From Candidatus Kaiserbacteria bacterium (lineage in GTDB: Bacteria > Patescibacteriota > Minisyncoccia > Phycocordibacterales > UBA2100), in contig PLSR01000019.1 in assembly GCA_003164215.1 (NCBI GenBank), positions 1 through 50,122 on the forward strand: a stretch of 50,122 nt of DNA. The letters are read 5' to 3'. Numbering within the stretch: the first letter of the stretch is position 1; each line of letters begins with the position of its first letter. Positions 16,313-44,325 of this stretch are shown one piece after another. Made by a program: the position numbers and the translations under genes. The notes below the pieces were generated by a model. The model was not told the DNA's origin, did not search any database, and worked only from the letters and a program-made list of their open reading frames with translations.

Positions 16313-16330
16313 CGAAGGCGGCGGCACTGG

Positions 16331-16447
16331 GGCGTATCCCATAGGTATGTGTTCGACGGGGTCTTTGCAGCGCGACTGGCGCGAAACAGAGGGATTTTCC
16401 AGTAGGAAAATCCCGACCCCGACGAATACATACCTATGGGATACGCC
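16331..16447. repeat. Long inverted-repeat element with two internal hairpins (three-way-junction type)
   Basis: Arms 16332-16363 and 16415-16446 match with 2 mismatches; internal GCGC-GACTG-GCGC and GGGATTTTCC-AGTA-GGAAAATCCC. Confidence 0.9.
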
Positions 16448-16508
16448 GGCACACCATCCCCATCTCCCCTCTTGACGCGATAGCTGGCAGCATATATCAT
16501 TCAACTAT

Positions 16509-24862: not shown

Positions 24863-25534
24863 CTAGAGACGCTCCCCTACTATACGCAACATTTCCTCTA
24901 TTTTCAATCGTTTGCGCGAGAGACAGGGCACTTTCCGCGTGTGGTACATCTTTCGCAGTAGTTTCAATGAATCAGCTTTCGCGTATTTGAGTTGAAAGAA
25001 CACGCTGGCTTTTCCGCTCCGCGTGATATGTCATCGTATTTTGAGTCGCGCATAAATTTCCCTTCGCAACCAAAGAATATGCGCTTCACTGGCAGAAACA
25101 AACGCGGTGTAGAACATAAAACTCGATCGCCATCGGGGATCAAAATATGAGTAGGTTGAACCGTCTCCATCAAAAGAACCCCGAAGAAAATCAAAGAAGT
25201 ACTCAGCTGGGATATTTACCTTTCCTATGAGTTTCGATTTGTTGGACATTAAACCAATTAGCTCAAGGAATCGATAGAAGAGAACGTCGCTGAATTGCGA
25301 CACAAAATAATGCTTCGTTTTTGAGAAATTATTCGCTTTTTTGCCAATATGGATGACGATATCGAGAGACTTTTGGAACAGCCGGATCATCTCTAGATCT
25401 TTCGAAGTGAAGTTGATATGCCGACCGTCTGGAGAAAGGTTCCCATCAGAAACAATAAGGCCGACCGCATACGCGAAATTCGGCGACCACTGAATATTCA
25501 CTCTCCCTTTAGGTTTTGGACCCCTGACCCCCAT
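24863..25534 (-). pseudogene. LAGLIDADG homing endonuclease with one in-frame TGA
   Basis: YAVGLIVSDGNLS and FFDFLRGSFDGDGS motifs; TGA at 25031-25033, then the same frame continues HITRSGKASVFFQLKYAKADSLKLLRKMYHTRKVPCLSRKRLKIEEMLRIVGERL* to 24863. Confidence 0.85.
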
Positions 25535-28131: not shown

Positions 28132-28254
28132 CACATTTTGGTCAGGCGTATTTTTCTGCTGAAAAATCGCCGCGAAGTCTCCCGGCACGAATCTCTATTT
28201 GCCGGCTCGCCTCGTCAGGCTCCGGCTCACAAAATGTGCCCCGCACATTTTGTG
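28132..28254. repeat. tRNA-Val 3'-associated multi-hairpin element
   Basis: CACATTTTG arm 28132-28140; AT hairpin 28150-28167; GC hairpin 28201-28226; CACAAAATGTGC-CCC-GCACATTTTGTG 28228-28254. Confidence 0.8.
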
Positions 28255-28325
28255 CATCCTGTAGGACTCGAACCTACGACCTTCCCCGTGTAAAGGGGTT
28301 GCTCTACCAACTGAGCTAAGGATGC
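28253..28325 (-). tRNA. tRNA-Val (TAC)
   Basis: Acceptor GCATCCT/AGGATGC; anticodon loop TTTACAC. Confidence 0.93.
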
Positions 28326-28337
28326 ATTTATTCAACT

Positions 28338-28475
28338 CACAAATCGTGCCTCGCACATTTGGTCACGGATATTTTCCTGCTGGAAAATTCCGCGAAGTCT
28401 CCCGACATGAATTTCTATTCACCTGGCTCGGCCCGTCGGCCTGCGCCCCACAAATCGTGCCCCGCACGATTTGTG
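28338..28475. repeat. tRNA-Arg 3'-associated multi-hairpin element
   Basis: CACAAATCGTGC-CTC-GCACATTTG; AT hairpin 28371-28388; GGCC-CGTC-GGCC 28430-28441; CACAAATCGTGC-CCC-GCACGATTTGTG 28449-28475. Confidence 0.8.
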
Positions 28476-28545
28476 CCTTCGGTAGGAATCGAACCTACAT
28501 TAAGGCCTTAGAAGAGCCCTGTTCTATCCATTGAACTACGAAGGC
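28474..28545 (-). tRNA. tRNA-Arg (TCT)
   Basis: Acceptor GCCTTCG/CGAAGGC; anticodon loop CTTCTAA. Confidence 0.92.
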
Positions 28546-31982: not shown

Positions 31983-32008
31983 TGATGCCAGTATATCCTA
32001 CAAATGAG

Positions 32009-32124
32009 TACATATCCCCGCAGGCTATAATTTGGGGTATTTCGAGTGCGTCGGCACGAGAACGAAGGGAGTTTTCTAGCAAGAAAACGACCGACCCAAA
32101 ATTATAGCCTGCGGGGATATGTGC
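32009..32124. repeat. Long inverted-repeat element with two internal hairpins
   Basis: Perfect 24-bp arms 32010-32033 and 32098-32121; internal GTGC-GTCG-GCAC (32046-32057) and GTTTTCT-AGCA-AGAAAAC (32071-32088). Confidence 0.92.
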
Positions 32125-32200
32125 TTACCAATGACAAACCCTGCTCCGGGGTCTGGAGCAGGGTAGTCACACTATACTACATCCGGGTAAAAAAAATATT

Positions 32201-41062: not shown

Positions 41063-41168
41063 GTTTGTGCCCGAATTAACTAACGGGCTGTTTCGTCAAT
41101 AATCGTAGCATGAAAAAACGGCGGGATTTCATCGCTGACAGATCCACCTGGTGTCGCTCATTATTTTG

Positions 41169-41302
41169 CGGGAGCTTGCGGGTACGCAACTCCACTTGGG
41201 TTTTCTAGCACGGAGTACCGTGAAGAAAATCTCGGCGGGAGCTTGCGGGTACGCAACTCCACTTGGATTTTTATAGTCGCTAGCACTCCTTAAAAATCTC
41301 GG
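41169..41302. repeat. Tandem pair of 67-bp two-hairpin units at the 3' end of tRNA-Ser
   Basis: Both units contain CGGGAGCTTGCGGGTACGCAACTCCACTTGG and end in AAAATCTCGG; unit 1 41169-41235, unit 2 41236-41302. Confidence 0.9.
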
Positions 41303-41387
41303 CGGATGGGGTGAGATTCGAACTCACGACACCTTGCGGTGTGACGGTTTTCAAGACCGTTGCCTTAGACCACTCGGCCACCCATCC
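41303..41387 (-). tRNA. tRNA-Ser (TGA)
   Basis: Class II tRNA; anticodon loop CTTGAAA; GAGTTCGAATCTC. Confidence 0.92.
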
Positions 41388-44056: not shown

Positions 44057-44174
44057 GTCGCAATCATGGCGCCTAATGGCTTCATCTGCAATGGCATTTT
44101 GGGGGGTTTGTGGAAAAGAAATTAAAAGCAGGACTTCCACTTCCGATTTTGAAGACAACTCATGGTCACAGATA

Positions 44175-44258
44175 ATTTTCTACTGAAAATTTCGCCGGCC
44201 CCGGCTCGCACCGACGTGCTCCGCCGAGCACAAAACTGCGCTTACTCGTTTTGTGCTC
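44175..44258. repeat. tRNA-Arg(GCG) 3'-associated multi-hairpin element
   Basis: ATTTTC-TACT-GAAAAT 44175-44190; GTGCTC-CGCC-GAGCAC 44216-44231; GAGCACAAAA...TTTTGTGCTC 44226-44258. Confidence 0.8.
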
Positions 44259-44325
44259 CCGGCAGGAATCGAACCTACATCACGACCTCCGCAAGGTCGC
44301 GTCCTATCCGTTGAACGACGGGAGC
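44254..44325 (-). tRNA. tRNA-Arg (GCG)
   Basis: Acceptor GCTCCCG/CGGGAGC; anticodon stem CGACC/GGTCG with loop TTGCGGA. Confidence 0.9.

Follow-up and report, generated by a model that had tools for sequence, protein, structure and literature searches.

REP/REPIN-RAYT sequences and the MITEs derived from IS200/IS605 are small dispersed hairpin elements that carry no gene. Behind E. coli tyrT lie the RtT RNA repeats, in which the tRNA 3' end is copied; they occupy one locus and are not dispersed. Elements of the CTX-phi type use the Xer recombinases of their host by way of a forked single-strand hairpin, the target being dif. Islands and phages with a tyrosine integrase are described as integrating in tRNA and tmRNA genes, with attL and attR sites (Williams 2002, as cited in PMC9897764). 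The attC strands on which integron integrases act are recombined in folded form and have structure, not sequence, in common (PMC4792948).

We analyzed a 50,122-nucleotide stretch of Candidatus Kaiserbacteria DNA (contig PLSR01000019.1, here called the window) together with related genomes, and describe a family of elements of roughly 100–200 bp that hold no ORF of note. The family probably consists of small, gene-free, putatively mobile cassettes that insert at gene ends and carry a copy of the target end. In its workings it resembles site-specific integrative elements and integron cassettes and, by the tests made, belongs to neither group. As in tyrosine-integrase islands, the target lies in the 3' part of a tRNA or tmRNA gene, a copied 3' end restores the gene, a displaced tRNA fragment stands at the far end (31 of 86 tRNA-linked copies, and the tmRNA of locus L310) and integration can be head to tail. 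In contrast to such islands, the elements are very short, have neither integrase nor any other gene, possess a conserved covarying fold, reach dozens of copies per genome and hit many targets (5S rRNA, rplL, a pilB-like gene and 5' ends). As with attC sites, fold ranks above sequence and unpaired bulged bases are present, and, as with integron cassettes, a short crossover sequence is duplicated and arrays run head to tail (PMC4792948). Unlike integron cassettes, the elements come with no ORF, no attI platform and no integron integrase above cut-off; the GTT/AAC triplet of attC is missing, the junction being TGAC/C56, and the conserved part is inside with the variable arms outside. The resemblance to CTX-phi lies in an outer stem matching the target, inner hairpins and a host Xer as the sole tyrosine recombinase at hand, whereas the targets are tRNAs, 5S and gene ends rather than dif, and a role for Xer here would be by analogy. 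The likeness to REP/REPIN-RAYT and IS200/IS605 MITEs stops at a copy number out of step with Y1, the gene-end duplication and stems that covary instead of being conserved in sequence. Like RtT, the elements lie downstream of tRNAs with a tRNA 3'-end copy, although they are dispersed and match no Rfam family.

Copies in the window

tRNAs were called with ARAGORN and Rfam and the minus strand was inspected directly. A preliminary description made from the DNA letters had reported that tRNA-Val and tRNA-Arg run straight into a hairpin, and a perfect 12-bp P0 is indeed fused to the ends of tRNA-Val and tRNA-Arg(tct) (Table 1). The order it gave was borne out by reading the minus strand: tRNA, P0, a GC hairpin (hpA), GGGAGACTTCGCGG, an AT hairpin (hpB, TTTTYC-AGCA-GRAAAA), TGACC and a CAAA..TGTG arm. 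It had also remarked on the lack of a U-tract, and none follows in the window copies, whether after hpB or after the distal arm; an intrinsic terminator, defined by a GC hairpin plus a U-tract, was rejected on this ground. The Val and Arg(tct) units are 80% identical when aligned, and both fold more stably than 200 of 200 dinucleotide shuffles (z = −3.5 and −6.9, respectively). A small additional hairpin, missing from most relatives, lies between hpA and hpB in both of these focal copies (reaching ~28404 in the Arg(tct) copy), so that the enclosed junction proposed earlier is not simply three-way. The distal arm behind tRNA-Arg(tct) probably marks where a second, truncated unit begins.

Table 1 Features of the element copies in the window
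Feature	Position	Strand	Basis and detail
tRNA-Arg(tct), target gene	28473–28545	−	ARAGORN, Rfam
P0 hairpin fused to tRNA-Arg end, CACAAATCGTGC-GGG-GCACGATTTGTG	28449–28475	−	Perfect 12-bp inverted repeat; arms 28449–28460/28464–28475
hpA (GGCC-GACG-GGCC), Arg(tct) copy	28430–28441	−	Sequence reading and folds
hpB, Arg(tct) copy, 3' end GTGACC	28363–28395	−	R1 match, E 6e-6
Distal arm, Arg(tct) copy, P0-like hairpin remnant	28338–28363	−	Direct repeat D2 and inverted repeat I1
tRNA-Val(tac), target gene	28252–28325	−	ARAGORN, Rfam
P0 hairpin fused to tRNA-Val end	28228–28254	−	Perfect 12-bp inverted repeat; arms 28228–28239/28243–28254
hpB, Val copy, 3' end TGACC	28142–28175	−	R1 match, E 6e-4
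Distal arm, Val copy, AAAATGTG	After hpB to ~28132	−	Sequence reading
Third tRNA-linked copy, behind tRNA-Arg(gcg) 44253–44325	44163–44256	−	R1 match, E 3.7e-12
Divergent copy, ~30-bp outer stem	16326–16451	+	R1 match, E 8.5e-4; fold z −12.7; 13 bp past the stop codon of a short-chain-dehydrogenase-like gene
Divergent copy, ~28-bp outer stem	32003–32128	+	R1 match, E 0.0075; fold z −12.3

The two focal copies are outlying members of the family, whose covariance model (R1, below) matches mainly their hpB, and an exact pattern taken from the window copies alone gave no matches. For the divergent type II/III copies, membership is suggested by weak model scores and motif likeness, since alignment yielded hpB alone as consensus. 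Long-armed relatives (arms of roughly 20–33 bp) comprise the two divergent window copies and intergenic loci L018, L022, L023, L026 and L037; their arms are near-perfectly paired yet different at each locus, and no duplicated gene end was recognized in them.

Two further observations concern other elements near tRNAs of the window. Behind tRNA-Ser(tga), at 41168–41305 on the minus strand, a 67-nt unit (GAGATTTT-hairpin-AAAATCC-CAAGTGGAGTTGCGTACCCGCAAGCTCCCGCC) occurs twice in tandem, the two units being separated by 13 nt copied from the end of tRNA-Ser(tga). This is apparently a further cassette family, unrelated in sequence, that follows the same principle. Near tRNA-Leu (25031–25534, minus strand) there is an ORF judged by eye to resemble a LAGLIDADG-type homing endonuclease. 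Elsewhere, the 23S rRNA genes of L297, L366 and others contain group I introns, one above the Rfam cut-off and several below it.

Distribution and fold of the family

Of 60 genomes searched by BLAST with one unit, 38, its own among them, gave matches, chiefly to the hpB region, and 16 of the copies so found were used to build R1, a covariance model of hpA plus hpB. R1 found 1 to 40 copies (E ≤ 0.1) in each of 51 of the 52 same-genus (Kaiserbacteria) genomes, as well as 47 copies in genome G025 under more permissive settings. In an even sample of the phylum searched with strict filters (E ≤ 1e-4), 43 of 380 genomes matched; the spread is therefore patchy. The hpA-region pattern is present in named genomes of Kaiser-, Adler-, Nomura-, Taylor-, Yonath-, Taga-, Berkel-, Peregrini- and Peribacteria, and three matches in GC-rich genomes outside the CPR look like chance. 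Cores within one genome diverge strongly, and thus the copies are not recent bursts. Copies are borne by tRNA, tmRNA, 5S rRNA, rplL, pilB-like and other protein genes. No exact core match occurred in viral contigs, so viral carriers are not supported. Rfam 15 contained no match, and a known RNA family was dismissed for that reason. A literature search of partial coverage, with preprints outside its scope, returned no description of such elements; the family is apparently undescribed so far.

The fold was examined in 88 phylum-wide copies and 20 pairs. These copies had been selected by hpA and its flanks alone, with hpB excluded. Standard pairs made up 98.7% of the pair cells in an alignment that was fitted to the model, a bias in the model's favor. 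Double-sided changes numbered 343 cells versus 84 ± 7 in shuffles, and slid structures reached at most 50% standard pairs. Conserved unpaired positions are GGAG..CGAG flanking hpA, two features of hpB (its AGCA-type loop and a bulged A) and the 3' end GTGAC. The family fold is under selection.

Target genes, duplicated ends and insertion

Enrichment at tRNAs was derived from the search matches in G000, G025 and G028. Of the 59 copies there, 31 follow a tRNA of the same strand at a distance of at most 200 nt, where ~0.3 were expected (about 100 times chance), and none of the 59 occupies that interval on the opposite strand. In an independent phylum-wide set, 38 of 85 copies stand behind a tRNA. 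At 5S rRNA genes we found at least four distinct loci on the same strand and at least five on the opposite strand. If the target were recognized at the DNA level through a G-rich 5' arm, such as T-arms and the 5S stem have, this would account for the single orientation at tRNAs as well as for the occurrence of both orientations at 5S. The frequencies at tRNAs, with the related-genome copies and the covariation, support well the earlier proposal of a non-autonomous mobile element with tRNA 3' ends as its target; the interpretation offered at that time is, overall, partly supported.

In the main tRNA class the 3' end of the core, TGAC, is joined directly to a second tRNA 3' half that runs from C56 of the T-loop to the 3' end. 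This sequence (S1) is at least 80% identical to the 3' half of its own tRNA in 31 of the 86 tRNA-linked copies, compared with 0.3% for other tRNAs, and the identity ends 0–2 nt beyond the tRNA end in 29 of the 31. The arm that precedes the core is nearly complementary to the T-arm and can therefore pair with both tRNA 3'-half copies. We take the direct repeat to mark an insertion by which the tRNA was not disrupted. Gene ends are likewise duplicated at tmRNA (L310), at rplL (encoding L7/L12, the target gene ending in KVTLK*) and at a pilB-like gene (L132), and in mirror-form (type B) copies it is the 5' part of the gene that is duplicated, at tRNA-Glu (L327, L340) and at a beta-glucosidase-like gene (L142, L355). 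A long target duplication is unclear in many copies, among them the two focal ones and most intergenic ones; in the window class, which sits at the extreme tRNA end, the duplication comprises a few bases only.

Rather than a conserved switch, the distal arms are for the most part target duplications. The preliminary description had proposed that the middle arm pairs with either the tRNA-proximal or the distal arm. Both pairings can form in the window, but across the family only 29 of 151 copies show middle:distal pairing stronger than the 99% level of mismatched controls, and a switch of alternate arms was rejected as a family feature. This bears on the other function then suggested, a tRNA-processing or tRNA-transcription element, by which a cis-acting RNA of tRNA operons would control 3' processing or termination through alternative arm pairing in the read-through transcript. 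Such an RNA would suit copies that always lie on the same strand 20–200 nt behind tRNAs, their strong, RNA-like covariation and the two-way pairing in the window, yet it is hard to reconcile with the siting of about half of all copies away from tRNAs, the 5S copies on both strands, the distal arms decayed in several copies and the terminator-like hairpins that often separate tRNA from element. We consider it very unlikely.

At rplL, four species have nearly identical P0 sequences with differing cores and differing displaced ends. Comparison of translated with displaced ends at nine loci (rplL and pilB-like) gave 19 synonymous and 3 non-synonymous codon differences, where ~23% synonymous was expected, several of the rplL loci sharing one S0 and hence being partly non-independent. 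The displaced rplL and pilB-like ends nevertheless look recently coding, and on the simplest reading the present gene end arrived with the cassette. The empty site is seen in G008, whose rplL end lacks an element: the displaced rplL end of L038 and its downstream flank align with it along 68 nt, a stretch that takes in the terminator stem. Head-to-tail units occur at L363, L349, L338, L310, L316 and others.

Head-to-tail units would go unexplained if a useful RNA or DNA element, selected behind certain genes, had spread by homologous recombination after DNA uptake, as would the core-to-C56 junction in many different tRNAs and the 5S copies on both strands. Strong selection on the structure agrees with such exchange, as does the outcome of searches for Y1, tyrosine recombinase and reverse transcriptase (RT), in which no dedicated mobility enzyme was identified; we nevertheless hold it to be improbable and retain insertion of cassettes as the preferred reading. 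A tRNA intron was also rejected: joining the type B flanks produced no tRNA, and L327, L329 and L340 each have an intact tRNA of that kind next to them. Nothing convincing as an autonomous version, with cargo between duplicated ends, was seen in 20 neighborhoods of ~16 kb.

Other composite loci were noted. A second recurrent mini-element, TTGGGAAGGGGTCGGG-hairpin-CCCGTATCGGAGAGCAG..GAGAACCGAGGGTTCTC, lies behind rplL at L241, L256, L258 and L259 and occurs also at L161 and L064; at some rplL loci it is found together with an additional copy of the rplL end. At L329 and L314 a degenerate tRNA-Ile is split in the anticodon loop by a unit holding a complete tRNA-Ile between inverted repeats, and is split again, in the T-loop, by an hpA/hpB element.

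Proposed mechanism and candidate enzymes

In the proposed mechanism, a cassette would consist of a target-specific 5' part and the conserved folded core (hpA, hpB and the GTGAC 3' end). The core meets the target through its 3' end at one set position, which in the main tRNA class directly precedes C56 of the T-loop, and the 5' part would copy the target sequence downstream of the junction, so that the gene would stay intact. The duplicated gene end would travel with the cassette, and the displaced original end would remain behind the core as a direct repeat. The mirror form would carry a copy of the 5' part of the gene, and units may insert head to tail.

Exactly one tyrosine recombinase, a Xer, was found in most of the 16 genomes checked, among them most of the element-rich ones. 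The three single Xers tested were XerA-like above that model's cut-off and scored 123–137 bits as integron integrase, below the cut-off of 265. Reverse transcription was rejected, RT being missing from 14 of the 16 genomes, most of the element-rich ones included. Movement of the folded cassette as single-stranded DNA, with a host enzyme such as the lone Xer recombining it in trans by analogy with integron cassettes or Xer-integrated phages, is speculative, and we rate it as unlikely. Somewhat less doubtful, though still tentative, is the broader picture of a new type of mobile element: putative gene-free micro-cassettes whose one-strand fold would be recognized and which a host recombinase would insert in trans, with stem-loops of tRNA, tmRNA, 5S and other genes as targets, each lineage with its own replacement gene end, forming head-to-tail arrays and widespread in Patescibacteria.

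The enzyme might instead be an IS200/IS605- or RAYT-type Y1 (HUH) transposase; such enzymes recognize bulged hairpins, and the element would then be a MITE- or REP-like sequence that they move. The hairpins do carry a bulged base, type B copies show no evident target duplication and Y1_Tnp was found in 45 of the 52 genomes of the genus. However, Y1 number does not keep step with element copy number (47 elements versus 1 Y1 in G025, 25 versus 0 in G004 and 4 versus 16 in G072), and duplication and restoration of a gene end are, to our knowledge, not features of that family. We rate Y1 or RAYT mobilization as very unlikely.

These are very small genomes, yet a gene-free family is present in nearly every sampled species of the genus, and patchily across the phylum, where it occupies some of the most essential genes. 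For annotation there is a warning, in that many tRNA fragments here would be displaced ends left by such cassettes. The family offers a compact system for asking how DNA that has no genes moves, whether a single host Xer integrates folded strands and how the ends of essential genes get replaced harmlessly.
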